Source of the DNA: a virus
Strand: one strand, 5' to 3'
DNA length: 60,305 bases
IMG/VR virus record: IMGVR_UViG_3300022902_000970
Span: 1 to 60,305 of that record
A program made the translations under genes and the position numbers. Shown piece after piece: positions 5,096-60,305 of this stretch. The notes below the pieces were generated by a model. That model ran no database searches. It was not told where the DNA came from and saw nothing but the letters and a program-made list of their open reading frames with translations. How positions within the stretch are numbered: the stretch's first letter is position 1; each line of letters begins with the position of its first letter.

Positions 5096-5111
5096 CGCCA
5101 AAGGAAAAATT

Positions 5112-6536: not shown

Positions 6537-6539
6537 GGC

Positions 6540-8187: not shown

Positions 8188-8530
8188 AATCTCTCATGTC
8201 GAAAAAGGCTGGGGTTACGAAAAATGGATTGTAAATAAAAAAGAATATTGTGGAAAATTGCTATTTTTCCATCAAGGTAAAAGATGCTCTTGGCATTATC
8301 ATAAATTAAAAGATGAAGTGTTCTATCTTCAATCTGGCGAGTTAATAGTAAAATTCTCCGACCAAGATGATATAGAAAAAGCAGAAGAGATTATACTCAA
8401 ACCAGGAGGCAACTTTTACGTCTATCCAGGTCTACGACATCAAATGATAGCGCTTAAGCCATCACAACTGTTTGAGTTTTCAACAGAACATTTTGATTCA
8501 GATTCATATAGAGTGATTAAAGGAGATTAA
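8162..8530 (+). CDS. cupin-domain sugar isomerase-like protein
   Basis: 122-residue single cupin. W-G-Y-E-K-W near residue 17 is the usual entry of mannose-6-phosphate-isomerase-type cupins. The metal ligands are visible in W-H-Y-H (about 43-46), D-E-V-F and G-L-R-H-Q-M (about 96-101). It could be a sugar-phosphate isomerase or epimerase, or a binding protein; the short length argues for a stand-alone cupin of polysaccharide clusters. It overlaps the HAD gene by 26 bases, and its own site is a distant AAGGA. It is followed one base later by the RmlB-like gene. Confidence 0.7.
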   Translation: MSTLNQAPEISHVEKGWGYEKWIVNKKEYCGKLLFFHQGKRCSWHYHKLKDEVFYLQSGELIVKFSDQDDIEKAEEIILKPGGNFYVYPGLRHQMIALKPSQLFEFSTEHFDSDSYRVIKGD

Positions 8531-8531
8531 T

Positions 8532-9482
8532 ATGAAACTCGTTGTTATTACAGGATGTCTAGGTTTAATTGGCTCATACGTCACCCGTAAGTGCCTCTCT
8601 AAGGGATGGAAGGTCTATGGGGTAGATAACCTCACCTATGCGGCAAACAAATCGTTTCTAGAGCTATTTAAGAGGGATTCTAACTTTACCTTCCTAGAAG
8701 AAGATATTGCTCAACTTAAATCTTTACCAGATTGTGATTATGTTATTAATATTGCTGCGGAATCTCACGTAGGTAATAGCATCATTGATAGTAGTGATTT
8801 TATCGAAACAAACGTAAATGGAGTTAAAAACCTGCTCGATCTTATACGAAATAAACCAGATAACACCATGAAGCGCCCCGTATTCTTTCACTTCAGCACT
8901 GATGAAGTTTATGGAGACATCACCGAAGGCGAGCATGTAGAGACAGACCCTCTTATCCCAAGTAACCCTTATTCAGCCTCCAAGGCGTCGTCAGACATGC
9001 TTATCTTGGCTTGGGCAAGGACTTACGGCGTAAAATATGTTATTGTTCGCCCCACAAATAACTATGGCGAAGGGCAATATCCAGAAAAGCTTATTCCTTT
9101 GTGTGTGAAGCTCCTCCAACGAGGAAAAAAGATTATGCTTCACGACGGAGGCGAACCAATCCGCAACTGGCTTCACGCAGACGATACAGCAGAAGCAGTT
9201 ACAACTATCGTCGAGTCTGGAAAGACAGATGAAATATTCAATATTCCCGGAGACTTCGAGCAGAAGAATTATTTAACTGTTAAAAAAGTCATCGAAGCAT
9301 ACTATAATAATGATGTAAAATGGAAAGATTACGTGGACTTAAATCACAAACGCCCTGGACAAGATGTAAGATACGCTTTGAATGGCGATAAGTTAAGACA
9401 ACTCGGCTGGAAACCTACAAAGGTTTTTGACGAAGAGATTATAAAGCTTGTTGAGTTTTATAAAGAGAATTTCAAATGGTAA
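8532..9482 (+). CDS. rmlB: dTDP-glucose 4,6-dehydratase-like SDR
   Basis: 316 residues with a strong AAGGAG site. T-G-C-L-G-L-I-G at 7-14 binds NAD. F-F-H-F-S-T-D-E-V-Y-G-D near residue 115 contains the T-D-E dehydratase triad typical of RmlB, and N-P-Y-S-A-S-K (about 144-150) is the catalytic tyrosine/lysine pair. R-P-T-N-N-Y-G and R-N-W-L-H-A-D-D-T complete the RmlB signature. It makes the 4-keto-6-deoxy intermediate needed by the upstream C-methyltransferase and reductases. Variants acting on CDP-, GDP- or UDP-sugars share these motifs, so dTDP-glucose is the likely but not proven substrate. Confidence 0.85.
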   Translation: MKLVVITGCLGLIGSYVTRKCLSKGWKVYGVDNLTYAANKSFLELFKRDSNFTFLEEDIAQLKSLPDCDYVINIAAESHVGNSIIDSSDFIETNVNGVKNLLDLIRNKPDNTMKRPVFFHFSTDEVYGDITEGEHVETDPLIPSNPYSASKASSDMLILAWARTYGVKYVIVRPTNNYGEGQYPEKLIPLCVKLLQRGKKIMLHDGGEPIRNWLHADDTAEAVTTIVESGKTDEIFNIPGDFEQKNYLTVKKVIEAYYNNDVKWKDYVDLNHKRPGQDVRYALNGDKLRQLGWKPTKVFDEEIIKLVEFYKENFKW

Positions 9483-9492
9483 GGAGAAACAA

Positions 9493-9684
9493 ATGAAACT
9501 TTCAAATCAAGGAATGGGTACTCTTATGATGTGCCTTCAGAAATCCCTCATGGAACAAAGTGATATCATGCCTATGCTGCAAGAACTTAATTTCGAATTA
9601 GAAGGAGAAGAAATTGTTTGCGTCAACCCACCTAAGATAGAATTAAATACAACAGAATTTTATCAAGAAGATGAGGATGCCTAA
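9493..9684 (+). CDS. small acidic hypothetical protein
   Basis: 63 residues from ATG 9493 with an AAGGAGA site eight bases upstream. It opens M-K-L-S-N-Q-G-M-G-T-L-M-M-C-L-Q-K and ends in an acidic tail. Similar short proteins precede zinc-ribbon and sigma-factor genes in marine T4-like phages, as far as I recall, but I recognise no function. The stop overlaps the next gene's start region. Confidence 0.65.
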   Translation: MKLSNQGMGTLMMCLQKSLMEQSDIMPMLQELNFELEGEEIVCVNPPKIELNTTEFYQEDEDA

Positions 9685-46901: not shown

Positions 46902-47434
46902 TATTAGCCCTAGACATTAGCACCAGCATCACAGGAGTAACAATACTTGAAAAAGACGGAACCCTTGTTTATAATGATGCGTGGGACACAAGAAAATACA
47001 AGAACTTTTTTGAGAAAGTAAAACATGTTGAAAAAAATCTTACAGAGCTTTGCAACAAACGTGGGGGAATCGAAAGGGTATTTATCGAGCAATCTCTCCA
47101 GAGTTTCCGATCTGGATTCTCGTCGGCAAAAACTTTGTCAACTCTCTCTCGTTTTAATGGGGTGGTGTCATGGTTGGTATATCGAATTTTGCAGGTTGAA
47201 CCACAATACTTAGCTGCTACCTCCGCTCGTAAATTGTGTGGCATTAAAGTTCCACGCGGAACCAAAGCCAAACAAGTTGTTATTCAACATATTTTAGATA
47301 ATGTCCCTGAAATCCAAATAGAATACACAAAGCAAAACAACGTGAAGCCTCATTGCTACGACAAGGCAGACAGTTGGGTTATTGCTAAAGCAGGACTTAT
47401 TCAGTGTCAACAGGAAGAAAAACAGCAATCATAA
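46898..47434 (+). CDS. RuvC-like Holliday-junction resolvase
   Basis: 178 residues starting at TTG 46898 in a TTGA overlap with the preceding stop. The RNase H-like fold is indicated by L-A-L-D-I-S-T-S-I-T-G at the N-terminus (first catalytic aspartate, residue 6), V-F-I-E-Q-S near residue 63 (glutamate), and C-Y-D-K-A-D-S near residue 155 (last aspartates). RuvC-type enzymes resolve four-way junctions; phage versions may also debranch DNA for packaging. The gene opens the nucleic-acid island and overlaps the primase gene by 31 bases. Confidence 0.8.
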   Translation: MILALDISTSITGVTILEKDGTLVYNDAWDTRKYKNFFEKVKHVEKNLTELCNKRGGIERVFIEQSLQSFRSGFSSAKTLSTLSRFNGVVSWLVYRILQVEPQYLAATSARKLCGIKVPRGTKAKQVVIQHILDNVPEIQIEYTKQNNVKPHCYDKADSWVIAKAGLIQCQQEEKQQS

Positions 47435-48345
47435 GGGAAGTCTTTGGAGACTGTTATGGCTCCGGCTCCGAAATGCTGTTTCACTGCCCTAAATGCGAAC
47501 ACCACAAGCGCAAGCTCTCTATCAATGTAGAGAAGGATGCTTGGAAATGTTGGGTTTGTGATTGGTCAGGACGAAACTTAACCAAGATTGTGCGCCGCTA
47601 TGGCGACCTCTATAATAAGAAGAAGTGGTCCGAACTTGTAAACAAAGTTGAACTTGCTTCTTTTGAAGAGAAGATGTTCGCTGAAGTAGAAGAAGAACCA
47701 GAGCAAAGGGTCGAACTTCCAAAAGAGTTTAAATCTCTTGCGAACAAAACTGTCCCTCGTTCAGCGTCAGCCGCCCTTCGCTATCTCCGCGAGAGAGGAA
47801 TAAAAAAAGATGACATTATAAGATGGAAGATTGGCTACTGTGATTCAGGAGAATTCGCCAAGAGAATCATCATTCCATCCTTTTCCTTAAATGGTCATAG
47901 CAACTACTTTATTGCCCGCTCCTACGATGGGCACTGGAAGAGATACCTAAACCCCAAGGCATCCCGTAACATCGTTTTTAACCACCTTTTCTTGGACTTT
48001 GAGGATGATTTAACCATTGTTGAAGGAGCATTTGATGCAATCGTCGCAGGAACCAACGCAGTTCCTCTTTTGGGCTCAACTTTGCGCGAGTCATCCAAAC
48101 TTCTCCAAGAGATTGTAAAGAACGACACAACAGTTTACATGGCACTTGACCCTGACGCACGAAAGAAAGAAGATAAGATAATGACGCTTCTGCTAAACTA
48201 TGGAATAGAAGTTTACAAAGTTGACTTAAGTGAGTATAATGATGTAGGCGAAATGTCCCCGAACGTTTTCCAAGAAAGAAAAGAAAAATCTCCTTTGGTA
48301 GAAGATAAATTCTATTTACTAACAGAAAGGTTGTTTTCCTTATAA
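47404..48345 (+). CDS. DNA primase, DnaG/gp61-type
   Basis: 313 residues from GTG 47404 with AGGA upstream. The N-terminal zinc ribbon uses C28, C31, C49 and C52. The TOPRIM domain shows V-E-G-A-F-D-A near residue 205 (catalytic glutamate) and A-L-D-P-D-A near 247 (metal aspartates). It makes RNA primers for lagging-strand synthesis; in T4 the primase (gp61) works with helicase gp41, not in this window. It is the size of T4 gp61 (342). The gene ends just before the promoter-like motif at 48351. Confidence 0.85.
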   Translation: MSTGRKTAIIREVFGDCYGSGSEMLFHCPKCEHHKRKLSINVEKDAWKCWVCDWSGRNLTKIVRRYGDLYNKKKWSELVNKVELASFEEKMFAEVEEEPEQRVELPKEFKSLANKTVPRSASAALRYLRERGIKKDDIIRWKIGYCDSGEFAKRIIIPSFSLNGHSNYFIARSYDGHWKRYLNPKASRNIVFNHLFLDFEDDLTIVEGAFDAIVAGTNAVPLLGSTLRESSKLLQEIVKNDTTVYMALDPDARKKEDKIMTLLLNYGIEVYKVDLSEYNDVGEMSPNVFQERKEKSPLVEDKFYLLTERLFSL

Positions 48346-48350
48346 AACAA

Positions 48351-48360
48351 CTATTTATTG
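48351..48360 (+). promoter_or_regulatory. CTATTTATTG motif before the first tagged gene
   Basis: CTATTTATTG in the 36-base gap after the primase gene, preceded by ACAA. It lies about 21 bases before ATG 48382, with an AGAGG ribosome-binding site between them, a good layout for a short-leader promoter. The same ten bases occur at 59285. Confidence 0.45.
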
Positions 48361-48381: not shown

Positions 48382-48615
48382 ATGAAAATCACAAAAACCA
48401 GACTTAAAGAAATCATTAAAGAAGAGATCGAGGGCTACGATGACCACTATACTGATCCTATTGCCCCACATAGACCGGAGTATCCTTGGACTGAATTTGA
48501 AGGAATAGTGTATACAACGGTTTCACGGGCCATCCAGCGTGGTGATGATGCCGCTGCTCTAATGAAGATAATCAAGCGCCTGCTGAGTGAAGAGCCAACA
48601 GGGGCAAACAAATGA
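48382..48615 (+). CDS. small protein with MKITKTRLKEIIKEE tag (1)
   Basis: 77 residues from ATG 48382 with AGAGG upstream. The first 15 residues (M-K-I-T-K-T-R-L-K-E-I-I-K-E-E) are a basic amphipathic helix ending in I-x-E. The rest is unrelated to the other tagged proteins: I-E-G-Y-D-D-H-Y, a proline-rich segment, and a C-terminal helix. By analogy with T4 internal proteins, the tag could direct the protein into the prohead and be cut after I-K-E by the protease encoded at 59418. The stop overlaps the ATG of the next gene. Confidence 0.6.
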   Translation: MKITKTRLKEIIKEEIEGYDDHYTDPIAPHRPEYPWTEFEGIVYTTVSRAIQRGDDAAALMKIIKRLLSEEPTGANK

Positions 48616-48656
48616 AAATCACGAAAACAAGACTTAAAGAAATCATTAAAGAAGAA
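48382..48656 (+). repeat. tandem copies of the 45-base tag sequence
   Basis: Bases 48382-48426 and 48612-48656 are near-identical direct repeats encoding the same 15 residues, 230 bases apart. A third, more diverged copy, different in several codon positions but nearly the same in protein, lies at 60047. Identical protein with partly different codons suggests selection on the peptide rather than on the DNA for the distant copy, and a more recent duplication for the close pair. Confidence 0.7.
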
Positions 48657-48884
48657 GTTGTTAAAATCTTCGAAGCAGGACGACCCCATGCGTTACGCGG
48701 CGGACGAACCATGAAAGACCTAGATGACGATGCAAAAACTAGAGAAACCGATTTCTTAAAAAAGAAAAAGGATGAAAAGGAAGAAGAAGAACTCGATGAA
48801 ACTTCTGCCTCGGGCACTGGAGCAGTTGCAGGTTCCTCTGTCGGTCCTATGTCCCCCAGGCGCAAACCAGTCAAAGAACAATGA
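48612..48884 (+). CDS. small charged protein with MKITKTRLKEIIKEE tag (2)
   Basis: 90 residues. The same N-terminal tag is followed by a very charged body (K-K-K-D-E-K-E-E-E-E-L and a basic end P-R-R-K-P-V-K). The DNA of the tag differs from the 48382 copy at only 2 of about 45 bases. A tag joined to a small charged body is typical of injected or internal head proteins, which here would be inferred. It starts within the previous gene's stop and is followed by a 73-base gap holding a sigma70-like promoter. Confidence 0.6.
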   Translation: MKITKTRLKEIIKEEVVKIFEAGRPHALRGGRTMKDLDDDAKTRETDFLKKKKDEKEEEELDETSASGTGAVAGSSVGPMSPRRKPVKEQ

Positions 48885-48923
48885 CCGGACCTCGATCGCT
48901 AGTATAACGATTTAAATAACCTC

Positions 48924-48951
48924 TTGATTAACTGCAAATAGTGATTATAAT
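48924..48951 (+). promoter_or_regulatory. sigma70-like promoter before the Mre11-Rad50 gene
   Basis: TTGATT (48924-48929), a 16-base spacer and a perfect TATAAT (48946-48951). A start point seven bases after the -10 box would be the A of the ATG at 48958, so the transcript may be leaderless; no ribosome-binding site is seen upstream of the ATG. A host-type promoter fits early or middle expression of a recombination gene inside a late region. Confidence 0.5.
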
Positions 48952-48957
48952 ATACGC

Positions 48958-51900
48958 ATGAAGATTGCACATATTAGTGATTTGCATATTCGTAACTATC
49001 GTTATCATTACGAATATGAACAGGTGTTCGAACGACTCTACGAAAAACTCAAAGAGTTGAAACCAGACATCATTGTCAATACCGGCGATACAGCCCACAC
49101 CAAATTAAATCTTAGCCCGTCTTATTTTGACATGGCTGCGAGGATGTTTGAGAAGTTGGCTGATATTGCTCCCTATCATATTATCTTGGGGAACCACGAT
49201 CTAAACCTTCGCAACCTTTCCAAGATCGACGCCGTTTCCCCCCTTGTTGCGGCGTTGAACCATCCCGATATTCACTTCCACAAGCACTCTGCGGAAGTGG
49301 ATGTTGGAGATGGTTTTTGTTTTCATGTGTTATCTATCGTAGACGAAGAAAACTGGACTCTTCCTACAGACATGGACAAAATAAACATTGCTCTTTTCCA
49401 TGGTTCAGTCGCAGGAGTTAAAACTTCTACAGGTTGGACGATGACTCATGGGGATATTAGCCTAGATCGTCTCACAGAATACGACTATGCTCTTCTAGGG
49501 GACGTTCATAAACCCAATCAGGAGTTAGATAAAGAAGGTCGCATTCGCTACGCCGGTTCTCTCGTACAACAAAACTTCGGAGAGTCAGAAGAAAAGGGAT
49601 TTCTTCTTTGGGATATCAAAGACGTTGATACCTTTAAAGTAAAACATTACGCGCTTGAAAACCCTAAGCCTTTCGTGACTATCAATTTAACCAAGAAAGG
49701 GAAGATTCCCTCAAAAGCACAGATTAAAGAAGGTTGCCGCCTCCGCCTTGTTTCTAATGTTAATCTGCCTATCGACGTTATTAAACGCACCATCGATGTT
49801 GCGAAAACAAAATATAACCCTGAGACTGTAAATTATTATTCAAATGTATTTGGCAAGAAAGGCAAGAATGATATTATTAACTCTGTATTCAAAGATGACC
49901 TTCGCAGCATAGAGGTCCAACAGAACTTGATTTCTGAACACCTCGTAGATTATGAATTAGAGGAGGATACTTTAAACCAAATATTCGAACTTAATCAAAA
50001 ATACAACAAGCTGGTTACCGATGAAGAAGAAGTAAGCCGCAATATCCACTGGTCAGTTAGTAACCTGAACTGGGATAATCTTTTTAACTATGGAGAAGAC
50101 AACTCTATTAACTTCAACAAGCTAAAAGGAATCGTTGGAATCTTCGGTAAGAACTTCTCTGGTAAATCTTCCATTGTTGATTCTTTACTTTATACCATGT
50201 TTAATACAACTTCCAAGAACGAAAGAAAGAATCTTAACGTTATCAACCAGAATAAAGATAATGGTTCCGGGACTATTGAAATAGACATTGGAACTAATAC
50301 CTACAGGATTGAACGAACTAGCGAGAAGTATGAAAAGAAACTTAAAGGAAACACTTCTATAGAAGCCCGCACAAATGTAGAATTTACACAGATAGACAAA
50401 CTAACAGGTGAAGAAACTCCCTTAAACGGAGACACTAGAGCCCAAACAGACAAGAATATCCGCTCGGTTTTCGGTTCTATCGAAGATTTTCTTTTAACTT
50501 CCATGGGCTCCCAGGTAGATTCCCTCGCTTATATTAACGAAGGCTCAACAAAACGAAAAGAAATCCTTGCTAAATTCCTCGACCTGGAGGTTTTTGAAAA
50601 GAAATATAGAAAAGCTAAGGATGATGCAGGTGACCTCCGCGTAGCGATTAAAAAGCTCAAAGACCGGCAGTTTGAAGACGAGTTAAAAAATAAAAGAAAA
50701 GAACTTGCCCTCAATGAAGCTAAAATAGATGTCCGCCATAGAGAATGTGAAGAGCTTAAAACACAGACAGGAGAGTTTAGAGATTCTCTCTTAGCATTAC
50801 AAGAAAAAATTAGTTCTATCCCAACCGAAGTCATTCAAATCAAGAATGTCTTAAAGCAGATTAAAGCCAAAAATGGACAACTGGAAGAAATAACTAAAAA
50901 AGAAAAACAGTTTCTAGAAGAGATTGAAAATAAAATAGAGTTTATCCATAAGTTTGAAAAGTTCCAACAAATTTTTGATATTGAAGACGCTACAGAAAGA
51001 AAAGAAAAAGCCGATGCTTTAATCAGTGAACTTGAAATGATTGAAAAAGATATTGAAGTAACATCTTTAAGATATCAAAATCAAGTGAAAAAAGTGTCTC
51101 TTCTAAGTGAAGTCCCTTGTGGTTCCGAGTATTCGTCGTGTAAGTTCATTAAAGACGCCTATAAGGCATCCAAAGCGATTGATACTACCAAGGTAGCCTT
51201 AAATGACCTAACGCTCTCAAAGACCCAAAAAACCACTGATTTAGGGGGTTTAGATTACGAGCAAAATAATGAGTATATAAACAAATATAACACCGCAAAA
51301 ATAAAGAGTAACGAGCACGAGAAAGAAATAAAAGATGTCAAGTTAAAAATACAGGAAAACAAGACAGAAAGTCTGAAACTAACTAACGAAATTAACGAGT
51401 TGATTGACAAAAGAGAAGAATACGAAGAACATAGGGACGCTATTGAAAACTTAGAGACGCTTATAAACGAGAAAGATTGTATAGAAAGCGTAATCACCAC
51501 GAATGATTTAGCTTGCGAAAGATGTAACGAGGGATTGCTTGAGCTTTACAAGTCTAATGGATTTCTAGGGCAGCAATTCAAGCAGATTGAGATCGAACAA
51601 AAGGAATATGAAACATTAAATACAAGCTATTCTGTATATGATTTATACATGAAAGCAGTTCACTCTAACGGTATTCCTTCAAATCTTATTAACAGAAGTC
51701 TTCCAGTTATTAATCAAGAGATACAGAAGATTTTATCTAATGTTGTAGACTTTGAGGTTCTTTTCGAGAACGAAGATACCAAGCTAGATATTTTGATTAA
51801 ACATCCTAAATACGACGCTCGACCAATCGAAATGGGCTCGGGAGCAGAGAAAACTATCACTGCAATGGCAATCCGCCTTGCACTCCTTAATGTGTCAACG

Positions 51901-52110
51901 CTTCCTAAAGGAGACATTTTTATTCTCGACGAACCAGGGACAGCCCTAGACGAAGAAAATATGGAAGGTTTTATTCGCATCTTGGACATAATCAAAGGCG
52001 AGTTTAAAACAATCTTTCTTATTTCACATTTAGAAGTACTTAAAGATATCGTAGACAAGCAAATAATCATTAACAAAGAAGATGGTTATGCTAAAGTTAA
52101 TGAAAGCTAA
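48958..52110 (+). CDS. fused Mre11-Rad50 (SbcD-SbcC, T4 gp47-gp46-like) nuclease/ATPase
   Basis: 1050 residues in one frame. Residues 1-340 are an Mre11/SbcD phosphodiesterase: S-D-L-H-I (7-11), N-T-G-D-T-A-H near 43, G-N-H-D near 79, L-F-H-G-S near 147 and G-D-V-H-K-P near 180, the metal-binding motifs. From about 365 a Rad50/SbcC ATPase follows: G-K-N-F-S-G-K-S-S near 396 (Walker A), a Q-loop region M-G-S-Q-V-D, long coiled coils, a hook-like C-x6-C (P-C-G-S-E-Y-S-S-C) near 720, a C-E-R-C near 853, signature M-G-S-G-A-E-K near 958 and Walker B F-I-L-D-E-P near 988. T4 encodes these as two genes. The enzyme should process DNA ends for recombination-dependent replication and may degrade host DNA. 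Confidence 0.88.
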   Translation: MKIAHISDLHIRNYRYHYEYEQVFERLYEKLKELKPDIIVNTGDTAHTKLNLSPSYFDMAARMFEKLADIAPYHIILGNHDLNLRNLSKIDAVSPLVAALNHPDIHFHKHSAEVDVGDGFCFHVLSIVDEENWTLPTDMDKINIALFHGSVAGVKTSTGWTMTHGDISLDRLTEYDYALLGDVHKPNQELDKEGRIRYAGSLVQQNFGESEEKGFLLWDIKDVDTFKVKHYALENPKPFVTINLTKKGKIPSKAQIKEGCRLRLVSNVNLPIDVIKRTIDVAKTKYNPETVNYYSNVFGKKGKNDIINSVFKDDLRSIEVQQNLISEHLVDYELEEDTLNQIFELNQKYNKLVTDEEEVSRNIHWSVSNLNWDNLFNYGEDNSINFNKLKGIVGIFGKNFSGKSSIVDSLLYTMFNTTSKNERKNLNVINQNKDNGSGTIEIDIGTNTYRIERTSEKYEKKLKGNTSIEARTNVEFTQIDKLTGEETPLNGDTRAQTDKNIRSVFGSIEDFLLTSMGSQVDSLAYINEGSTKRKEILAKFLDLEVFEKKYRKAKDDAGDLRVAIKKLKDRQFEDELKNKRKELALNEAKIDVRHRECEELKTQTGEFRDSLLALQEKISSIPTEVIQIKNVLKQIKAKNGQLEEITKKEKQFLEEIENKIEFIHKFEKFQQIFDIEDATERKEKADALISELEMIEKDIEVTSLRYQNQVKKVSLLSEVPCGSEYSSCKFIKDAYKASKAIDTTKVALNDLTLSKTQKTTDLGGLDYEQNNEYINKYNTAKIKSNEHEKEIKDVKLKIQENKTESLKLTNEINELIDKREEYEEHRDAIENLETLINEKDCIESVITTNDLACERCNEGLLELYKSNGFLGQQFKQIEIEQKEYETLNTSYSVYDLYMKAVHSNGIPSNLINRSLPVINQEIQKILSNVVDFEVLFENEDTKLDILIKHPKYDARPIEMGSGAEKTITAMAIRLALLNVSTLPKGDIFILDEPGTALDEENMEGFIRILDIIKGEFKTIFLISHLEVLKDIVDKQIIINKEDGYAKVNES

Positions 52111-52127
52111 TTTCAAGGAGAAATAAA

Positions 52128-52322
52128 ATGGAAAAAGTTAAAGCACTTTTAGATAGAATGACAGAAAAGGTTATTAGCCGCAAGTTTCTTGCGTGGGTTA
52201 CAGCGACAGTGCTGTCTGCCCATAATCATATTGATTCAGCCGATTGGGTAGCAGTAACGGTAATGTATATCGGTTCTGAAGCTCTGGTTGACCTAGCAGC
52301 AAGATGGAAGCACGGAGCCTGA
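52128..52322 (+). CDS. small membrane protein, holin-like
   Basis: 64 residues with a strong AAGGAG site. A basic N-terminus leads to two moderately hydrophobic segments (about 20-31 and 39-57: F-L-A-W-V-T-A-T-V-L and W-V-A-V-T-V-M-Y-I-G) and a short basic end. The pattern R-K-F-L then Y-I-G-S-E-A-L-V-D resembles small phage holins. It starts a three-gene set with membrane/coiled-coil proteins. A holin function is inference; the segments are short and contain H, D and S. Confidence 0.45.
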   Translation: MEKVKALLDRMTEKVISRKFLAWVTATVLSAHNHIDSADWVAVTVMYIGSEALVDLAARWKHGA

Positions 52323-52326
52323 TGAT

Positions 52327-52713
52327 ATGCTTACTTTAAAAAAAGTTTGGGTATGGATTAAAAAGCACTGGTATGTTCCGGTGCTTTTTATTTTGGCATT
52401 GGTTGCAGGAGCATTTAGTTTTTCTCGCAATAAAAAGTTAATCAAGCTGCTTGAAATTAATAAAGAAAGCTACGAGAAACAAATAAGAGTCTTAGAAGAC
52501 AACCATTCTTCTGAGATTAAAAGACGTGATGAGATTTACGCCAAATATGTAGAGACTATGAAGAAGCTCAATAAAGACCACGACATAGACATGAAGAATC
52601 TTTCCAAAGAAAAGAAAGAAAAAATGGACGATATGGTCAAGAAATATAAAGGAACACCAGAAGAGCTTGCAAAAGAGCTAGCAGAAATGTTTGGAGTTGA
52701 TTTTGTTGAGTAA
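52327..52713 (+). CDS. membrane-anchored coiled-coil protein (inner spanin-like)
   Basis: 128 residues. One membrane segment near the N-terminus (about 15-33, W-Y-V-P-V-L-F-I-L-A-L-V-A-G-A-F) is followed by a long charged coiled coil (about 40-110). N-in topology with a periplasmic coil is the form of inner-membrane spanins (Rz type). It starts four bases after the holin-like gene, and the next gene overlaps its end by eight bases, as Rz/Rz1 pairs often do. No sequence family recognised. Confidence 0.5.
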   Translation: MLTLKKVWVWIKKHWYVPVLFILALVAGAFSFSRNKKLIKLLEINKESYEKQIRVLEDNHSSEIKRRDEIYAKYVETMKKLNKDHDIDMKNLSKEKKEKMDDMVKKYKGTPEELAKELAEMFGVDFVE

Positions 52714-53182
52714 GATTTTATCTATATTTTTATGTTTTCTATTGGTGTTTACACCTGCGATTGCGTTCGGTGGAGAATCAGACCCAGATAATTCGTTAAG
52801 TCCTAGCGGAAGAGTAACGGTAATAGGTCAAGGGGAGAAAACGCCCTATGGAGGTCTTCTTTTCGATTTAAAGGCGTCCGTCAAGCTAAAGTTAGATAAA
52901 GAATTTGCTTTAAAGAAATATGAACTACAACTAGATTTACAAAAGAAACTAATAACGTCAGAATTTACTTTAAAACTTGGGCTTCTACAAACTAAGTATG
53001 ATTCTTTACAAGAGAAGCACACCGCACTTCTAAAAATAAAGAACGAAGAAATCTTTCGTCTACAAGAATTGGTCAAAAATAGCCCTAACGATCATACACA
53101 ATGGTGGTTCATAGGTGGTATTGTGGCGGGATGTCTTCTCTCTCTTGGGGTTTATTACGCCGCCCTCAAGGTTAATCAATGA
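52706..53182 (+). CDS. signal-peptide, coiled-coil, C-terminal TM protein (spanin-like)
   Basis: I choose TTG 52706 because GGAG lies at 52693-52696, nine bases ahead; earlier in-frame TTGs at 52691-52703 are possible. The product of 158 residues has an N-terminal signal-like segment (I-L-S-I-F-L-C-F-L-L-V-F-T-P-A-I-A-F) with a cleavage-type A-I-A, no proper lipobox, a helical coiled-coil periplasmic part, and a C-terminal membrane segment near 133-152 (W-W-F-I-G-G-I-V-A-G-C-L-L). This resembles the layout of unimolecular spanins but without an outer-membrane lipoprotein anchor. The stop overlaps the next ATG. Confidence 0.5.
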   Translation: MSKILSIFLCFLLVFTPAIAFGGESDPDNSLSPSGRVTVIGQGEKTPYGGLLFDLKASVKLKLDKEFALKKYELQLDLQKKLITSEFTLKLGLLQTKYDSLQEKHTALLKIKNEEIFRLQELVKNSPNDHTQWWFIGGIVAGCLLSLGVYYAALKVNQ

Positions 53183-53577
53183 GCGAGAAAGATCCCAACT
53201 ATGTAGCCAAACTAGAGAAAGCTATTGCAGATAAATACGGCAAGGAAGCTATTCAAAACCCTAAGTCTGGCTGGACACCCGAGAAAGAAAAAGAATATAT
53301 TGAACAAGTAAAGAAAATCCAAGAAAAGAGAAACCAGAAAGAAGAGACAGCAGAAAAGGTTGAAACTAATGGCTTTTTCATCAAAAAAAAACTACTTAAT
53401 AGAGAACAAAAAAGAAACTGTCCTGTTTGCGAAGAATATTCGTTAGAAAAAAAAGATGATGTCTATATGACAAAATTTGATTGTTGTTTTAAATGCTATA
53501 TAAGCTATGTAGAAAATAGAGAGGAACGCTGGAAAACAGGATGGCGACCAAACACAGGAGATAAAGATAATGTCTAG
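53179..53577 (+). CDS. small zinc-finger-like hypothetical protein
   Basis: 132 residues. The N-terminal two thirds is a charged helix. The C-terminal part has C-P-V-C near residue 80 and C-C-F-K-C near 102, a likely zinc knuckle, followed by W-K-T-G-W. It overlaps the spanin-like gene by four bases and the next gene by eight. Function unknown; proteins of this type near terminase genes may bind nucleic acids. Confidence 0.6.
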   Translation: MSEKDPNYVAKLEKAIADKYGKEAIQNPKSGWTPEKEKEYIEQVKKIQEKRNQKEETAEKVETNGFFIKKKLLNREQKRNCPVCEEYSLEKKDDVYMTKFDCCFKCYISYVENREERWKTGWRPNTGDKDNV

Positions 53578-54082
53578 CAAAGAAGATTTAGAAGTGATTA
53601 GAGCGATTGGGCAGTGCGCGGCAAATGCGTATGACGGCGCTCTGGATGAAAACGGAGAGCCTATTGTCATTGGTCTCTCTCGCGATGTAGGTAATCCCAC
53701 CCTTGATAGTCGTATTGTGGATGGTTTTAAGGTTAAGATGGTAGGAAAAAAACTTATGATTTCCTATCAATCAGATGTTTTTTTGAAAGATGTCCATAGC
53801 AATAACTTTGAAAACGACCTAGAAAGAAAAATGGGAGACATTGTTTCTTATCTCAAAAAAGAGTTTAAAAAAATCACCAAAAAAGCACTTAACCTAAAAT
53901 CTCTTGGAGATTGCGATGCCTTAGTCCAACAGACTTCCCGCGTTAGAGTGTTTGTTGTCGCTACTAAGACCTATGAAGTAGGAAACCTATCCAGTGTTGA
54001 CACTGTGGAGGGAGACACGACAGTGAAAAACACCCACCGCAATTTCCAAGATTTCCTCGCAGAAGGTGCATGGAAAGCTTAG
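53570..54082 (+). CDS. hypothetical protein upstream of terminase
   Basis: 170 residues, mixed alpha/beta. The start D-L-E-V-I-R-A-I-G-Q-C-A-A-N-A-Y-D-G-A is helical, followed by strands (K-L-M-I-S-Y-Q-S-D-V-F-L-K) and R-V-R-V-F-V-V-A-T-K-T-Y. It occupies the place of T4 gene 16 (small terminase), but its length, strand content and lack of a DNA-binding helix pair argue against that identity. A head or neck component is also possible. Confidence 0.55.
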   Translation: MSSKEDLEVIRAIGQCAANAYDGALDENGEPIVIGLSRDVGNPTLDSRIVDGFKVKMVGKKLMISYQSDVFLKDVHSNNFENDLERKMGDIVSYLKKEFKKITKKALNLKSLGDCDALVQQTSRVRVFVVATKTYEVGNLSSVDTVEGDTTVKNTHRNFQDFLAEGAWKA

Positions 54083-54103
54083 TAGATAATATAACCAAAA
54101 ATA

Positions 54104-55678
54104 ATGCCGTATAATCTTACCAAAAAAGAAATACTAACTGAGATTGTCAAAGCGGGAAAAGACCCGTCTTATTTTATCAACAACTACGCTAAGATTGCTC
54201 ATCCAATGCGCGGTTTAATTCCGTTCAAGCTGTATAACTTTCAAGAACAGTTGTTGAAAGATTTTAATGACCACCGTTTTAATGTCATTCTTAAGGCACG
54301 ACAGTTAGGTATTTCTACTATTTCTGCTGCTTACATCGCATGGATGATGATGTTCCACCGAGATAAGAACATTCTTGTCATTGCAACAAAGTTTGGAACA
54401 GCAGCTAATCTTGTAAAGAAAGTTAAATCGATTATTAAATATCTTCCCCCTTGGATGCAGATAGCAAATATCTCTATTGACAATAGAACTTCTTTTGAGC
54501 TTTCTAACGGTTCGCAGATTAAAGCCTCCTCGACTAGCTCCGACGCTGGACGATCTGAGGCTTTATCTTTGTTAGTAGTTGACGAGGCTGCACACGTTGA
54601 CGGACTCGACGACTTGTGGACTGGCTTATATTCTACCCTGTCTACTGGCGGACGATGCATCGCTCTTTCAACGCCGAATGGCTGCGGCAACTGGTTTCAT
54701 CAAACATATGTGGACTCCATCTCGGAAAACAACGATTTCTTCCCCACCAAACTAATGTGGGATGTCCATCCCGATAGAGACCAAGGGTGGTTTGAAAAAG
54801 AAACTCGTAACATGTCTAGGAGGCAGATTGCCCAGGAATTAGAATGTAACTTCAATATGTCGGGAGAAACTGTGTTTCATCCTGACGATTTAGTTTACAT
54901 TGCCAACAGCGTAAAACCTCCCAAACATAAAACTGGACTTGATAGGAATTTTTGGATTTGGGAAGAGTACCAATCGGAATCGACTTACCTTATCTCAGCC
55001 GACGTCGCTCGCGGCGACGGTAAAGATTATTCTACCTTTCATGTTATCAAGATAGAAACAAATGAAATCGTAGGAGAGTATCAAGGAAAGTTAACACCGG
55101 ATATTTTTTCTGGTATACTCTATGATGCCGGCAAAGAATATGGCGATTGCATGATTGTTGTAGAAAATTTAGCCGCAGGACATACGGTACTGGACAAGCT
55201 GGCAGAAAGAGAATATCCCAATGTGTACCACTCTTATAAATCTTCTCACGAGTATGTAGATCAAGTAACTGCCGAGTATTCTAATAACGCTATCGCAGGC
55301 TTTACCACCTCTAGTAAAACTCGCCCTTTAATAATTGCAAAAATGGAAGAATTCATTAGAAATAAACTACTTACGATATATTCGACAAGATTACTTGAGG
55401 AGATGAAAACATTCATTTGGCACAATGGTCGCCCACAAGCCATGAGAAAATATAATGATGATTTAGTTATGGCTTGCGCTATAAGCTGTTGGGTTAGAGA
55501 CACGGCATTTGAAACAAACAAGAGAGAACTGGAATACAAGAAAGCATTCTTAGGGGCTATGGCAACGACAAAAACAGAAATAAACACTGCAATCCCTGGA
55601 ATGCAGGGATATAAGTCTCATAAAAAACAAGATCAAATTAAAGAATATAAAGATTATAATTGGCTTTTAAAAGGTTAG
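54104..55678 (+). CDS. 17: terminase large subunit, T4 gp17-like
   Basis: 524 residues. The ATPase part shows a Q-x-x-L motif region Y-N-F-Q-E-Q-L-L near 46, a Walker-A-like K-A-R-Q-L-G-I-S-T (about 63-71), and Walker B L-L-V-V-D-E-A-A-H near 152-160. A coupling motif S-T-P-N-G follows at about 194. The C-terminal RNase-H-type nuclease has D (I-S-A-D-V-A-R-G-D, about 296), E (V-V-E-N-L, about 353) and D (N-D-D-L-V-M-A, about 452). It cuts and pumps DNA into proheads through the portal encoded next. No intein or frameshift seen. Confidence 0.93.
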   Translation: MPYNLTKKEILTEIVKAGKDPSYFINNYAKIAHPMRGLIPFKLYNFQEQLLKDFNDHRFNVILKARQLGISTISAAYIAWMMMFHRDKNILVIATKFGTAANLVKKVKSIIKYLPPWMQIANISIDNRTSFELSNGSQIKASSTSSDAGRSEALSLLVVDEAAHVDGLDDLWTGLYSTLSTGGRCIALSTPNGCGNWFHQTYVDSISENNDFFPTKLMWDVHPDRDQGWFEKETRNMSRRQIAQELECNFNMSGETVFHPDDLVYIANSVKPPKHKTGLDRNFWIWEEYQSESTYLISADVARGDGKDYSTFHVIKIETNEIVGEYQGKLTPDIFSGILYDAGKEYGDCMIVVENLAAGHTVLDKLAEREYPNVYHSYKSSHEYVDQVTAEYSNNAIAGFTTSSKTRPLIIAKMEEFIRNKLLTIYSTRLLEEMKTFIWHNGRPQAMRKYNDDLVMACAISCWVRDTAFETNKRELEYKKAFLGAMATTKTEINTAIPGMQGYKSHKKQDQIKEYKDYNWLLKG

Positions 55679-55681
55679 AAA

Positions 55682-57619
55682 ATGGTTAATAAGAAAAATA
55701 CAAAAAATCCTCAAAGTAAATTATTTAGACAACTTACTCGTTTGCTTTCTGGTCCTATCACAGATTACAGGAGACAAAACCCTCGTAAGTTAAGGCGTAA
55801 GCAGCTGGATAAATATAATTTTCAATCCGCCGGCGGTCTTGAATTTAAAAAAAGTGCTTATGATCCGTATAAGAATCTAGGATCAAACTTTTTTAATAAC
55901 CAGAGTCGTATGGAGAGGTATCTCGATTTTGACCAAATGGAATATTCCCCCGAGCTTCATTCTGCTTTAGATATTTATGCTGATGAAATGACGACCTCTA
56001 ACGAATTTAGTCCTCTTCTAGCGATTAAATGCCCGAATGAAGAGATTCGATTTACTTTAGAAAATCTATATCACAACGTTCTTAATATAGACTTTAATCT
56101 TTTTGGATGGTGCCGCACTATGTGCAAATATGGCGACTACTTCCTTTATTTAGACCTGGATGATGAGACAGGTGTTAAGAATGTTATTGGTTTACCAGCA
56201 AAAGAAATTGAACGACTTGAAGGAGAAGACCCAACAAATCCTAATTATGTCCAGTTTCAGTGGAACTCGGGCGGTCTTACCTTCGAAAATTGGCAGATGG
56301 CTCATTTCCGTATCTTAGGTAACGACAAACACGCCCCTTACGGCACATCGGTACTAGACCCCGCAAGACGTATCTGGCGACAACTCACCTTGCTCGAAGA
56401 CGCCATGATGGCTTATCGTATTGTGAGAGCCCCAGAACGAAGAGTTTTCTACATCGATACTGGAAATATCGCCCCAGAAGATGTGGAACAATACATGCAA
56501 AAAGTCATGACTCAAATGAAACGTAATCAAGTTATCGATACCGACACTGGAAGAGTAGATCTCAGGTATAATCCCATGTCTGTTGAAGAAGATTACTGGG
56601 TGCCGGTACGAGGACAAAGCAATACGCGAATTGAAAATCTACCAGGCGGAACATATACTGGAGATATTGATGATGTAAAATATTTACGTGATAAGCTTTT
56701 TAGTGCTATTAAAATCCCAGCATCTTATTTATCGTCAACTGACGATACAGAGGACAAAACAACCCTTTCTCAAAAAGATATTCGCTTCGCTCGAACTATT
56801 CAGAGACTCCAACGTTCAATCATTGCTGAATTAGAAAAAATAGGAGTTATCCATCTCTTCACATTGGGATTTAGAGGACCAGATTTAATTTCTTTTAACT
56901 TGACGTTAAATAATCCTTCGAAGATTGCAGAACTTCAAGAATTGGAGCACTGGCGAACTAAGTTTGATGTTGCTTCCGCCGCTACAGAAGGATTCTTCAG
57001 CAAACGGTGGATTTTCGAAAAGCTGTTTAATCTTTCACATGAAGAAATAAATCAAATTCAACGAGAAAAATATTACGACAAGAAATACGAAACTGCCCTT
57101 GAAGGAACAGCAGAAGAAGCCGCAGGGGGCGTCGGCGGGGGTGCTGGTTTTGATACCGGAGGCGAAGGAGATATCTTTGGAGGAGGTGAAGGCGAAGATG
57201 ACCTCGGTGGAGAAGAAGATTTAGGTGATTTAGGAGGCGATGATCTCGGAGGGGAAGAACCAGCAGAAGAGGAATCACCAACCGGCGGGCTTATAACAGC
57301 CCCCGGTAAAAGAGATGATGAAAATTATAAAACAACAAAAGTAGATAATATGGGGAGAAAAAAGACCACCACTACCGATTCAAAGCTGAGTTGGCATAAA
57401 CCAGTCACTCACGACAAGCGAACTTCTTCCGGTCCCCGTTCAAAACAAATGAAAGCACCAGGTGGTATACCCCAACCAATGAAAAGTTTAGGCAAGGGGA
57501 TAGTCGCAGAAAAACTTGCTACTACTTATAAGAAGGAAGAAGAACTTTTATTTCAAAGAAAAATAGATATTGATAACCTCATAGCAGGGATGGAGAACAA
57601 ATCTAAAGATGAAGTTTAA
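55682..57619 (+). CDS. 20: portal protein, T4 gp20-like
   Basis: 645 residues. The body matches gp20-type portals: M-E-Y-S-P-E-L-H-S-A-L-D-I-Y-A-D-E near residue 80, F-G-W-C-R-T-M-C-K-Y-G-D near 140, R-A-P-E-R-R-V-F-Y-I-D near 242, then the conserved Y-L-R-D-K-L-F-S-A-I-K-I-P-A-S-Y. Residues about 480-535 are a low-complexity glycine/glutamate segment, unusual for T4 itself, and the end is basic. It forms the twelve-fold ring at the head vertex. It lies three bases after terminase; T4 genes 18 and 19 (sheath, tube) that separate them in T4 are absent here. Confidence 0.93.
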   Translation: MVNKKNTKNPQSKLFRQLTRLLSGPITDYRRQNPRKLRRKQLDKYNFQSAGGLEFKKSAYDPYKNLGSNFFNNQSRMERYLDFDQMEYSPELHSALDIYADEMTTSNEFSPLLAIKCPNEEIRFTLENLYHNVLNIDFNLFGWCRTMCKYGDYFLYLDLDDETGVKNVIGLPAKEIERLEGEDPTNPNYVQFQWNSGGLTFENWQMAHFRILGNDKHAPYGTSVLDPARRIWRQLTLLEDAMMAYRIVRAPERRVFYIDTGNIAPEDVEQYMQKVMTQMKRNQVIDTDTGRVDLRYNPMSVEEDYWVPVRGQSNTRIENLPGGTYTGDIDDVKYLRDKLFSAIKIPASYLSSTDDTEDKTTLSQKDIRFARTIQRLQRSIIAELEKIGVIHLFTLGFRGPDLISFNLTLNNPSKIAELQELEHWRTKFDVASAATEGFFSKRWIFEKLFNLSHEEINQIQREKYYDKKYETALEGTAEEAAGGVGGGAGFDTGGEGDIFGGGEGEDDLGGEEDLGDLGGDDLGGEEPAEEESPTGGLITAPGKRDDENYKTTKVDNMGRKKTTTTDSKLSWHKPVTHDKRTSSGPRSKQMKAPGGIPQPMKSLGKGIVAEKLATTYKKEEELLFQRKIDIDNLIAGMENKSKDEV

Positions 57620-58427
57620 ACATAATAAAAAAAGAAACACTGCTTTTGTATTTGAAAGCCTGACCCGCGAAGTAGTTAAAAATATCATAGCAGAAGACTT
57701 AGAAAAAAAAGATAAAGTCCTCGCGATGCTTAAGAAGTTTTTTAATAAAGATACCGAACTTTACAAAGAGCTGCAAATCTACAAATCGATATTAGAAGCT
57801 AGAGAAATGTGCGCGGAAATGAAAGAAAAAGTAATCAAAGAAGCCAGATTTCAGCATGACAAACTCAACAAAGAACAAATTTTTAAGACTCAGACATTTT
57901 TGATTAAAGAAATCAACACTAATGTTTCAAAAGATATTTTCAATAACTTTGTTCCTAACTACAAAAACCTAGCTACGATTTATAACTTTTTGAATATGGA
58001 TATGTCTCCAAAGAAAAAAGTTATCTTAGAAAGCCAGCTTCTCGAAGAACTTAAGAAACTTGAAGAAGAAAAACAAACACCTTCAGATAAACTTACTTTT
58101 GATGTTTTTATGAAAAAGTATAACGAAAAATATGGAAATAATCTTCTTCAAGAACAAAAAACACTTCTTAATAAATATATTACCTCGTTTTCTGATAATG
58201 GTCTGGGTTTAAAGATATTTTTGAACGAAGAGGTAGGTCGCATTAAAACAAAACTTAAGAACACTCTTAAAACAAACATTGTTAAAGAAAATAAGCCGAT
58301 TAAAGAAAAGATGTTGAAAGTTGAGGAGATTGTTGAATCTTTTAAAAATCAACCTATTAATCAAGATGTCCTTAAAAGTATTCTTAAAATACAAACCTTA
58401 TTAAACGAGATGGAATTAAATGAGTAG
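57609..58427 (+). CDS. hypothetical helical protein after portal (prohead-core position)
   Basis: 272 residues, strongly helical and charged, opening M-K-F-K-H-N-K-K-R-N-T-A-F-V-F-E-S-L. In T4 the portal is followed by the small core proteins 67 and 68 and then the protease. This and the next gene hold those positions, but no sequence match can be claimed. The high helix content would suit a scaffold-associated protein. It overlaps the portal gene by 11 bases and the next gene by 8. Confidence 0.6.
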   Translation: MKFKHNKKRNTAFVFESLTREVVKNIIAEDLEKKDKVLAMLKKFFNKDTELYKELQIYKSILEAREMCAEMKEKVIKEARFQHDKLNKEQIFKTQTFLIKEINTNVSKDIFNNFVPNYKNLATIYNFLNMDMSPKKKVILESQLLEELKKLEEEKQTPSDKLTFDVFMKKYNEKYGNNLLQEQKTLLNKYITSFSDNGLGLKIFLNEEVGRIKTKLKNTLKTNIVKENKPIKEKMLKVEEIVESFKNQPINQDVLKSILKIQTLLNEMELNE

Positions 58428-58944
58428 CGAAATAAAAATAACTATAAAACAAAAAAAACTTGTAGAAGTTGCTCTCGATGTTAAAAAATCATTAGATGGA
58501 AATCTAATGATTTTTGATCACAAAGATATTGATATTGTCATTATCCCCGAAAACAAAAAAATTGTTACTTTTCCTAAAAAGGAGTACTCTAAGCATGTGT
58601 ATCCCACCCAAGATAAGCTTTTTAATTATTTAAGAACCGACGGGGTTATCCAATACGATAGTATTAAAGGCGGTAATATTTTTATGTCAATGGAAGCTAT
58701 AATCTCTGAGTCGGAAGAAGTAAACTCTATCGACGCAACGCTTTATTCTATTTCTAAATTTATGATCCGGGAAAGAGAAATATTCGATTATGAAGACGCT
58801 ATGCAGAGCGATGAAGAAGATAACCTCACTGAACCTACCCCGGAAGACTCTACAGCGTTAGGAGAAGTCCCACAAGAGCCTAGAAAGGGAAGCATTGTCC
58901 CAGGGGTTAATCCCTATGGGCTGCCCGGTCAATATAATATGTAA
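58420..58944 (+). CDS. hypothetical protein with acidic C-terminus
   Basis: 174 residues. The first 100 look alpha/beta with V-A-L-D-V-K-K-S-L-D-G-N-L-M-I and D-I-D-I-V-I-I-P-E. The last 55 are acidic and proline-rich, ending G-V-N-P-Y-G-L-P-G-Q-Y. It lies in the prohead-core position between portal and protease. No family recognised. Confidence 0.6.
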   Translation: MSSEIKITIKQKKLVEVALDVKKSLDGNLMIFDHKDIDIVIIPENKKIVTFPKKEYSKHVYPTQDKLFNYLRTDGVIQYDSIKGGNIFMSMEAIISESEEVNSIDATLYSISKFMIREREIFDYEDAMQSDEEDNLTEPTPEDSTALGEVPQEPRKGSIVPGVNPYGLPGQYNM

Positions 58945-58948
58945 TTAA

Positions 58949-59263
58949 ATGGACTTGATTTATTTTATCCTGTGTACCTATGGAATGACACAAATCATTC
59001 TTTACGGGTCTATATTCAACAAAATCCGACCTTCCAAAGATTGGCTAGGAGGAACCGGAAAACTATTTCATTGTGCTATGTGCATGGGCTTTTGGGTGGG
59101 AGTTTTTCTTGCTTTCTTAAGCCCTTTTTGTTCTTTGTGGCAATATGAATTTACTATTGTAAATATCTTTCTGTTAGGGTGCCTCTCGTCGGGAACATCG
59201 TATATTTTAAACCGCCTTGTGAACGACGATGGAGTTTCTATCACCTTAAATAAAAATGAATGA
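58949..59263 (+). CDS. DUF1360-like membrane protein
   Basis: 104 residues with three or so hydrophobic segments (about 2-20, 44-60 and 70-88). The stretch H-C-A-M-C-M-G-F-W near 41-49 matches the C-x2-C-x-G-F-W hallmark of small DUF1360-type membrane proteins. Role unknown. It has no good ribosome-binding site (GTAATTAA before the ATG), so coupling with the upstream gene is likely. Finding an inner-membrane protein within a head module is unusual; T4 proheads assemble on the inner membrane, which might explain it (speculative). Confidence 0.6.
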   Translation: MDLIYFILCTYGMTQIILYGSIFNKIRPSKDWLGGTGKLFHCAMCMGFWVGVFLAFLSPFCSLWQYEFTIVNIFLLGCLSSGTSYILNRLVNDDGVSITLNKNE

Positions 59264-59284
59264 TGCTTTAAGTCCTTAAAGATA

Positions 59285-59294
59285 CTATTTATTG
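59285..59294 (+). promoter_or_regulatory. CTATTTATTG motif before the protease gene
   Basis: Identical over ten bases to the motif at 48351 and located in the 154-base gap between the membrane protein and the prohead protease. An AGGAG site follows at 59311-59315, serving the micro-ORF at 59324. Confidence 0.45.
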
Positions 59295-59323
59295 TGGTAT
59301 TTTATATTTAGGAGTACAATAGA

Positions 59324-59407
59324 ATGCGAAGACAAAACACACCCGGCGTTCGGCGCTGTTGCAGCGGAAGTCATACCAAGCAGGGGCGAGCCCTGCTTCT
59401 TTTTTAG
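59324..59407 (+). CDS. possible 27-residue basic micro-protein
   Basis: ATG 59324 to TAG 59407, with AGGAG at 59311-59315, eight bases ahead. It encodes a basic peptide with a C-C pair (R-R-C-C-S-G-S-H) and a hydrophobic end. The last third is overlapped by the terminator hairpin, so the apparent peptide may instead be an untranslated structured RNA. It is too short for a family call. Confidence 0.3.
   Translation: MRRQNTPGVRRCCSGSHTKQGRALLLF
59378..59405 (+). terminator. intrinsic terminator before the prohead protease
   Basis: AAGCAGGG (59378-59385) pairs with CCCTGCTT (59391-59398) around a 5-base loop GCGAG, followed by C and six T (59400-59405). This is a textbook Rho-independent terminator shape. 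A second small hairpin, CGCTG-TTG-CAGCG, lies just upstream at about 59354-59366. It would end transcripts from the 59285 motif or from the packaging genes just before the protease, or attenuate them. Confidence 0.75.
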
Positions 59408-59417
59408 GAAATGAAAT

Positions 59418-60050
59418 ATGAGTAAACAACTTATTAGAGAATTTTATGAACTTTGCCCTGATGGAAACTGCGTTCTTGACGTATTGACCGAAGGCGAAAG
59501 AGCCCGCCGCGACACCGGAGCAGTGTTTCTTGTTGGTATTTGCCAAAAAGCAGGCACTAAGAACGGCAATGGCAGAGTTTATCCTAAGAATGTCTTGGAG
59601 CGAGAGATAGAACATTATCAAAATCTTGTCCGAGAGAGGCGAGCCCTCGGAGAACTTGACCATCCCGACGATTCTGTCATTAATCTTAAAAATGCCTCTC
59701 ACCTTATTACAAAGATGTGGTGGGATGGCGATAGCGTCATGGGCAAGATTGAAGTCTTAGATACTCCATCTGGTAAAATACTTAAAGATCTTTTGAACTC
59801 TAATGTCAAGCTAGGTATCTCCTCCAGAGGAATGGGATCTGTTAAAGAATCTATGGGTTCTTTGACTGTAGAAGATGACTTTCAGCTTATCTGTTTTGAT
59901 ATGGTTGCAGATCCTTCTACTCCTGAAGCCTTCATGAGAGTGTCTACGGGCATGAATGAAAACAAGACACCTACCTTCACAAAGGAACTTACCCAAGTTG
60001 ATAAAATCAACTTTGCTTTAAACGATATTCTAAAGGAGACCAACACATGA
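59418..60050 (+). CDS. 21: prohead core protease, T4 gp21-like (S80/U9)
   Basis: 210 residues, like T4 gp21 (212). Typical segments are N-G-N-G-R-V-Y-P-K-N-V-L near 50-61, G-E-L-D-H-P-D near 79-85 (catalytic histidine), L-G-I-S-S-R-G-M-G near 131-139 (catalytic serine) and I-C-F-D-M-V-A-D-P-S near 157-166 (aspartate). T4 gp21 cuts head proteins after glutamate in [LI]-x-E contexts and destroys the scaffold during maturation. AGGAA lies ahead of the ATG. It overlaps the tagged gene at 60047, whose product contains such an I-K-E site. Confidence 0.92.
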   Translation: MSKQLIREFYELCPDGNCVLDVLTEGERARRDTGAVFLVGICQKAGTKNGNGRVYPKNVLEREIEHYQNLVRERRALGELDHPDDSVINLKNASHLITKMWWDGDSVMGKIEVLDTPSGKILKDLLNSNVKLGISSRGMGSVKESMGSLTVEDDFQLICFDMVADPSTPEAFMRVSTGMNENKTPTFTKELTQVDKINFALNDILKETNT

Positions 60051-60305
60051 AAATTACAAAGCAGCGATTAAAAGAAATTATTAAAGAAGAACTCAATGGC
60101 GCGTTGACGGAGAACCAAATCGCACTTATCATGGAAAGTGACCCGAAGGCGCTAGGACGGAAGCTGGCTCTTATGCCATCAAACCAAATGTCACCTGAGC
60201 GAGCAGGCATACTTTCTAGAAACAAATTGCAGGGCGCTACTGAACAGGAGCTTATCGCTATGATGAATAATCATTTAAAAAGTCTTGAAAGCCCAAGTGC
60301 ATCTG
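60047..60305 (+). CDS. MKITKQRLKEIIKEE-tagged protein (3), cut by window end
   Basis: ATG 60047 overlaps the protease stop (ATGA), with AAAGGAG 12 bases upstream. The frame stays open to the last base, giving 86 residues so far. The N-terminal 15 residues are the third copy of the tag (T-Q replaces T-T at one position). The visible body is helical (N-Q-I-A-L-I-M-E, E-Q-E-L-I-A-M-M-N-N-H). In T4 the gene after the protease encodes the scaffold gp22, so this may be the scaffold or another internal protein. The 3' end is missing. Confidence 0.65.
   Translation, partial: MKITKQRLKEIIKEELNGALTENQIALIMESDPKALGRKLALMPSNQMSPERAGILSRNKLQGATEQELIAMMNNHLKSLESPSAS

Follow-up and report, generated by a model that had tools for sequence, protein, structure and literature searches.

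What the shared N-terminus of three otherwise unrelated proteins encoded by one phage DNA fragment is for, is the question raised by this locus. The window analysed here is the complete 60,305-base IMG/VR record, a linear fragment, and, as the earlier note on this DNA had stated, the peptide MKITK[TQ]RLKEIIKEE is read in frame from ATG at 48382, 48612 and 60047. No fourth copy was detected within the window, even when a looser pattern was searched with 2 mismatches allowed (0.01 expected by chance). We regard this tag as a T4-type capsid-targeting propeptide, or as a peptide working like one, loading variable cargo, and assign this reading a probability of about 75%. The features concerned are the following:

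47404..48345, plus strand: DNA primase, left border of the island of tagged genes
48382..48426, plus strand: tag copy 1 (MKITKTRLKEIIKEE); [LI]-x-E only internal (LKE10 and IKE14), none at residues 21/22
48382..48615, plus strand: tagged gene 1, 77 aa, body without assigned function
48612..48656, plus strand: tag copy 2; second [LI]-x-E site at residue 21 (I-F-E before A)
48612..48884, plus strand: tagged gene 2, 90 aa, charged body
48958..52110, plus strand: SbcC/SbcD-like (gp46/47-like) nuclease-ATPase fusion as read from the sequence, right border of the island, kept in relatives
54104..55678, plus strand: terminase large subunit
55682..57619, plus strand: T4-type portal protein gp20
59418..60050, plus strand: gp21-type prohead protease (Peptidase_S77), the presumed processing enzyme
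60047..60091, plus strand: tag copy 3; second [LI]-x-E site at residue 22 (L-T-E before N)
60047..60305, plus strand: tagged gene 3, at least 86 aa, an extra gene directly 3' of S77

The head module of the window is T4-like and comprises terminase, portal (PF07230) and S77 prohead protease. The product of 59418-60050 matched the curated Peptidase_S77 model with 108 bits (cut-off 27, E = 5.6e-31), and its N-terminus, MSKQLIRE followed by F, is similar to the autosite of T4 gp21. The record stops inside the third tagged gene; hence the body of this gene is incomplete and the scaffold and capsid genes are missing from the window. The start codons of two tagged genes lie in ATGA overlaps, that of 48612 with the stop codon of the first tagged gene and that of 60047 with the stop codon of S77. 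In the closest relatives, whose S77 is about 90% identical, a different conserved gene with the start MKKxELKxxLKPLxKEC follows S77, indicating that 60047 is an inserted extra gene. Its assignment as the scaffold gene was rejected, as the relatives place that other conserved gene there and a scaffold-like gene further down. The left end of the window (1-9500) carries a cluster of sugar-nucleotide/glycosyltransferase-like genes, judged from their translations to include epimerases, a cytidylyltransferase, a kinase and a HAD phosphatase.

The tag belongs to a set far larger than the three proteins first noted: counted together with a second, interchangeable tag, it heads hundreds of unrelated proteins in uncultured T4-like phages. 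When 2.9 million viral contigs were scanned with a codon-degenerate pattern for MKITKxxLxxII[KR]EE, at least 120 stretches were retrieved; a control pattern with the same codons in permuted order gave 0 matches in these contigs. In one genome per species of 84,980 bacteria and archaea (257 Gb), 10 stretches were found on 7 contigs, all metagenome-assembled and two of them with S77. Between 1 and 14 copies were counted per large phage contig, and none for the reversed pattern. The at least 215 distinct tagged ORFs fall, by similarity of their bodies, into at least 178 families that are mutually dissimilar among the matches listed; the median length of tagged proteins is about 109 residues. A profile of the first 23 residues detected 436 distinct copies in 2.2 Mb, of which 397 are N-terminal (60 of them counted after start correction), 8 C-terminal, 30 internal and 1 cut, in loci mostly retrieved by the N-terminal pattern. 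The internal and C-terminal copies lie mostly in proteins also bearing an N-terminal copy. In 80 loci retrieved via S77 alone, 42 of 56 matches were strictly N-terminal, 6 near the N-terminus and 8 internal.

The pattern is absent from the whole records of T4, KVP40, S-WAM1, RM378, Mel-JY01 and immuto, which were searched directly because BLAST with such short queries is weak; a BLAST search of isolate phages with 22-residue tag peptides, weak as it is, had no match. Among the records searched with the pattern, loose versions of the tag occurred only in the uncultured 484-kb record LR756508, and a literature search for MKITK found no paper. The tag is so far restricted to uncultured phages.

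Tagged contigs also tend to encode the presumed processing enzyme. S77 was present in 44 of 78 tagged contigs versus 2 of 40 control contigs picked by an arbitrary 15-mer. For tagged contigs of about 28 kb or more the value is 25/30 (p = 6e-12 against the controls) and above 100 kb 17/17; the further 48 tagged contigs, mostly small fragments, include 19 with S77. The protease gene lies about 2.5 kb after the portal gene, and tagged contigs with portal but without S77 end before this position or within inserted genes preceding it. Contigs with a second tag described below, with portal and without S77, likewise end ahead of it. The earlier note had named occurrence of the tag in phages lacking a gp21-type protease as evidence against its proposal; we found no such case in the tagged contigs. 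Tagged genes are mostly on the same strand and in the same region as the head genes, and part of the link to S77 is genomic proximity, because many of them are located within about 11 kb of it. In one contig (L082; G124:C1:6492-8006) the S77 frame comprises 553 residues with the halves of the domain about 350 residues apart, a possible intein or other insertion.

Tagged phages contain a second N-terminal tag, MKLLxENWRKFLNE (general form MK[LKQ][LI][MLF]ENW[RN]x[FY][LIV]xE; e.g. L015, L061, L069, L084, L105, L110). It was first seen without any requirement for Glu at position 14, when 29 of 31 matches were near the N-terminus and none was found in control ORFs. The second tag occurs on 114 unrelated families, 97 of which have [LIVM]-x-E ending exactly at residue 14; the families were chosen on the first eight residues, and part of the sample came from a pattern already requiring Glu at 14. 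Related bodies are found behind either tag: those of L061 and L096 are 76% identical after different tags and those of L062 and L121 71%, and the GNAT proteins L084 (second tag) and L021 (first tag) share 32% identity; other pairs exist. In L061/L096 and L062/L121 homology begins at residues 15-17, and thus the exchanged unit comprises 14 residues.

These tags end in a motif that fits the protease. The gp21 protease cuts after L/I-x-E (PMC9026906). Among the matches listed, I/L12-x-E14, the end of IIKE, is present in 177 of 178 families of the MKITK tag. A second [LI]-x-E ends at residue 21/22 in 90 of the 178 families (shuffled sequences: mean 5.5, maximum 16 in 2000), and conservation ends there, the information per residue dropping from 1.1 bit at 22 to 0.26 at 23. 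The earlier note had placed the cut after I-K-E. The nearly invariant I12-x-E14 and the start of homology at 15-17 in the tag swaps favour this position, but the conservation boundary at 22, with its second motif in half of the families, favours the later site. At first 21/22 was favoured as the sole site; this was dropped, since the tag swaps and the second tag, which often has Glu at P1', point to residue 14. Judged from these motif positions, cleavage of the tag by S77 is likely, possibly at both sites. For phiKZ, propeptides are described as having redundant sites built in (PMC9026906).

The same motif recurs in other head proteins. The major capsid proteins of tagged phages possess a conserved QLL[KR]E or [VI]L[KR]E followed by A/S/Q/T, which ends their pro-region and aligns with the region of the T4 gp23 pro-region; we take FLTE, cut before A, to be the cleavage site of gp23 itself. 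The S77 proteins of these phages have L[LI]xE at residue 8, and T4 gp21 begins comparably with LIE-9 (PMC9026906). The conserved head gene found after S77 in relatives encodes MKKxELKxxLKPLxKECIKE-x-[IL]-[FL]-E, whose end is similar to that of the tag. Two phages of 240-293 kb (L378, L381) have two near-identical major capsid protein genes in tandem.

Alternatively the tag might be a docking helix for the prohead core or the capsid interior, never or only sometimes removed, with [LI]-x-E being part of the helix. Several observations would suit such a helix: C-terminal and internal copies exist, several of which keep LxE though a cut there frees almost nothing; E15 is invariant and left unexplained by a cut at 14; and about half of the families have no [LI]-x-E at 21/22. 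We nevertheless consider such a docking helix unlikely, because two unrelated tags end in [LI]-x-E at fixed positions, beyond which conservation drops sharply, and because this motif also ends the pro-region of the capsid protein and forms the autosite of S77. For residues 1-18 the hydrophobic moment does not stand out (p = 0.14). In an AlphaFold model of L096, built from two sequences and with a mean pLDDT of 79.6, residues 5-20 form a helix with a pLDDT of about 55, and the confidently predicted body begins at about residue 24; a detached low-confidence helix is as expected for a detachable leader. L026, L030 and L020 contain an internal copy of the tag that ends in LxE or SE; after it, near the C-terminus, comes a short SEKQRR[WY] motif, which also heads the small protein MPFKSEKQRRWMWA in L121.

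Few known domains were detected by Pfam and PHROG scans of 95 tagged proteins. Cargo of the first tag includes a GNAT acetyltransferase (L021), a 481-residue pentapeptide-repeat protein (L117) and a protein with weak EF hands (L102). The second tag is found on a GNAT protein (L084), a zeta-toxin-like kinase (L110) and a weak P-loop protein (L105). The earlier note was correct in placing two tagged genes of the window far from the head module, next to primase and recombination genes, and this location recurs in related phages: at least one tagged gene lies between primase and SbcCD in 16 of 22 loci having that pair, a count that describes anatomy and not a rate, as these loci were mostly retrieved via the tag and include near-duplicates. 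An orthologue of the second tagged gene occupies the same primase/SbcCD location in the contig of L149. Other tagged genes are situated in the head module beside S77.

This cargo and its location leave room for a different partner. The tag could be a bait for a phage or host partner outside the head, such as the replication machinery, the membrane or a shared chaperone, with the S77 linkage only reflecting the phage clade. Many tagged genes adjoin primase and SbcCD, all of the linkage comes from one phage group, and neither the bodies nor the partners have an assigned identity. Such a bait would, however, leave the terminal [LI]-x-E unexplained as well as the tagged genes in the head module beside S77, and the layout of the tag resembles that of the propeptides of T4 internal proteins; we judge it still less probable than the docking helix.

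The conservation concerns the peptide and not the DNA. Each of the two neighbouring copies differs from the copy at 60047 by 7 synonymous bases plus the T/Q codon, in agreement with the observation in the earlier note that the codons of the distant copy differ while the peptide is kept. Across the matches Leu8 is encoded by all six codons and Ile11 and Ile12 by all three, and on this codon variety DNA-level conservation of the tag was rejected. The orthologue of tagged gene 1 (L387) is 77% identical over 73 aa. Between the window genes and their orthologues the tags differ by 5/0 (L387 pair) and 4/0 synonymous/non-synonymous changes and the bodies by 15/30 and 15/36; thus the tag is kept as a peptide, far more strictly than its body. 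A conserved DNA element (translation enhancer, promoter or recombination hot spot) or a recent gene duplication might be suspected from the two neighbouring copies, which are nearly identical in DNA (3 synonymous, 0 non-synonymous changes between 48382 and 48612), but is very improbable in view of the freely varying codons, the purely synonymous differences between orthologous tags and the unrelated bodies.

Candidate DNA elements were seen in front of the genes:

48350..48360, plus strand: ACTATTTATTG, candidate promoter element upstream of tagged gene 1, suggestive only
59284..59294, plus strand: the same 11-mer ACTATTTATTG upstream of a micro-ORF/S77 unit, kept in close relatives

Being common to tagged gene 1 and the S77 unit, ACTATTTATTG is a possible shared late promoter. 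Another element, ACTATTTA, was found 24 times upstream of tagged genes versus 4.8 expected, an enrichment inflated by related sequences; the test restricted to the window was not significant. Directly upstream of S77 we observed a conserved micro-ORF, M[RK][RK]xNxPEVRRCC[KSN]GS (16-33 aa), with 51 matches in 80 loci (L154-L233). In the window it is located at 59324-59407, followed by the hairpin GCAGGGGCGAGCCCTGC and a T-run at 59380-59404. Possible roles of the micro-ORF are those of a leader peptide or attenuator for the protease gene, or of a very small peptide of the head.

The internal proteins of T4, which include an anti-restriction protein, are among the closest known models for such a targeting propeptide. 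To our knowledge, only few T4 internal proteins with targeting propeptides are known, and we know of no phage other than T4 for which sufficiency of the propeptide for targeting is proven. Like the targeting sequences of IPI, IPII and IPIII, the MKITK tag is short, N-terminal and attached to unrelated small proteins, its h-h-x-E end fits the gp21 rule and the phage encodes gp21. The propeptides of T4 comprise 10-19 residues (PMC9026906); the tag would measure 14 if cut after IKE and 21/22 if cut at the second site. With its 14-22 residues, two candidate sites, up to 14 genes per contig and interchangeability with a second tag, it differs from the T4 sequences. By inspection we found no clear similarity to the IPI, IPII and IPIII propeptides beyond M-K and the terminal h-h-x-E, and the tag is therefore described as working like a capsid-targeting sequence and not filed as a homologue. 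The second tag is the closer look-alike of the IPII/IPIII start in the T4 record. C-terminal propeptides are also reported for T4 Alt and gp21 (PMC9026906).

Other systems are more distant. The packaging signal of phage P1 DarB, the first 30 residues, is likewise N-terminal and sends anti-restriction cargo into the head (PMC9024508). Unlike our tag it is described for one large protein, and the parts of that description available to us contain no many-gene tag; the two are set apart by this description only. Ejection proteins of phiKZ and SPN3US have N-terminal propeptides cut after a short x-x-E, with several sites each (PMC9026906, PMC10052503). Their motifs are S/A-x-E or A-x-E and that of the tag is L/I-x-E: among the matches listed, P3 is L/I in nearly all families at 14 and in half at 21/22, and in the capsid proteins of the window's clade that we examined P3 is L. 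T4-type portal, terminase and capsid genes are the feature in common with Far-T4/RM378-like uncultivated T4 relatives. In the nearest annotated isolates phoH lies nearby, and the capsid proteins of the nearest isolates include that of RM378. In contrast to the window phage, RM378 has no tag, and the accessible part of the Far-T4 description mentions none.

The proposal of the earlier note that the tag routes proteins into the prohead is thus well supported, though indirectly, by strict N-terminal use on unrelated bodies, the link to S77, the [LI]-x-E ends and the interchange with a second tag whose layout is similar. We envisage that a short N-terminal amphipathic helix (residues about 5-20) on unrelated small proteins would bind the prohead core and that the tagged protein would be enclosed as the head assembles. 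S77 would then remove the tag at one or both [LI]-x-E sites (IIKE at 14; LxE at 21/22). The mature cargo would stay in the head and could probably pass into the next host together with the DNA. Core binding, cleavage and packaging are inferred from the tag, its position and spread, the S77 link, the motif positions and the swaps; injection of the tagged proteins is suggested by analogy to T4 and by the kind of cargo.

What is new is the scale on which the tag is used, the exchange between two tags, and the fact that so far they are confined to uncultured phages. More broadly, we lean slightly towards the view that uncultured T4-like phages, including those with genomes of 240-290 kb, use two or more interchangeable N-terminal propeptides as a general address code. 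These would bring a large, fast-changing arsenal of small proteins into the head, to be delivered on infection, an arsenal listable from sequence alone and encoded partly in the primase-SbcCD island. If the tag means the same as in T4, any tagged gene in a viral metagenome would be predicted to encode a virion-packaged and probably injected protein. This would give access to the small 'dark' genes that abundant uncultured phages carry (at least 178 families with few recognisable domains), and would provide a source of candidate counter-defence proteins as well as short portable signals by which proteins could be directed into phage heads.
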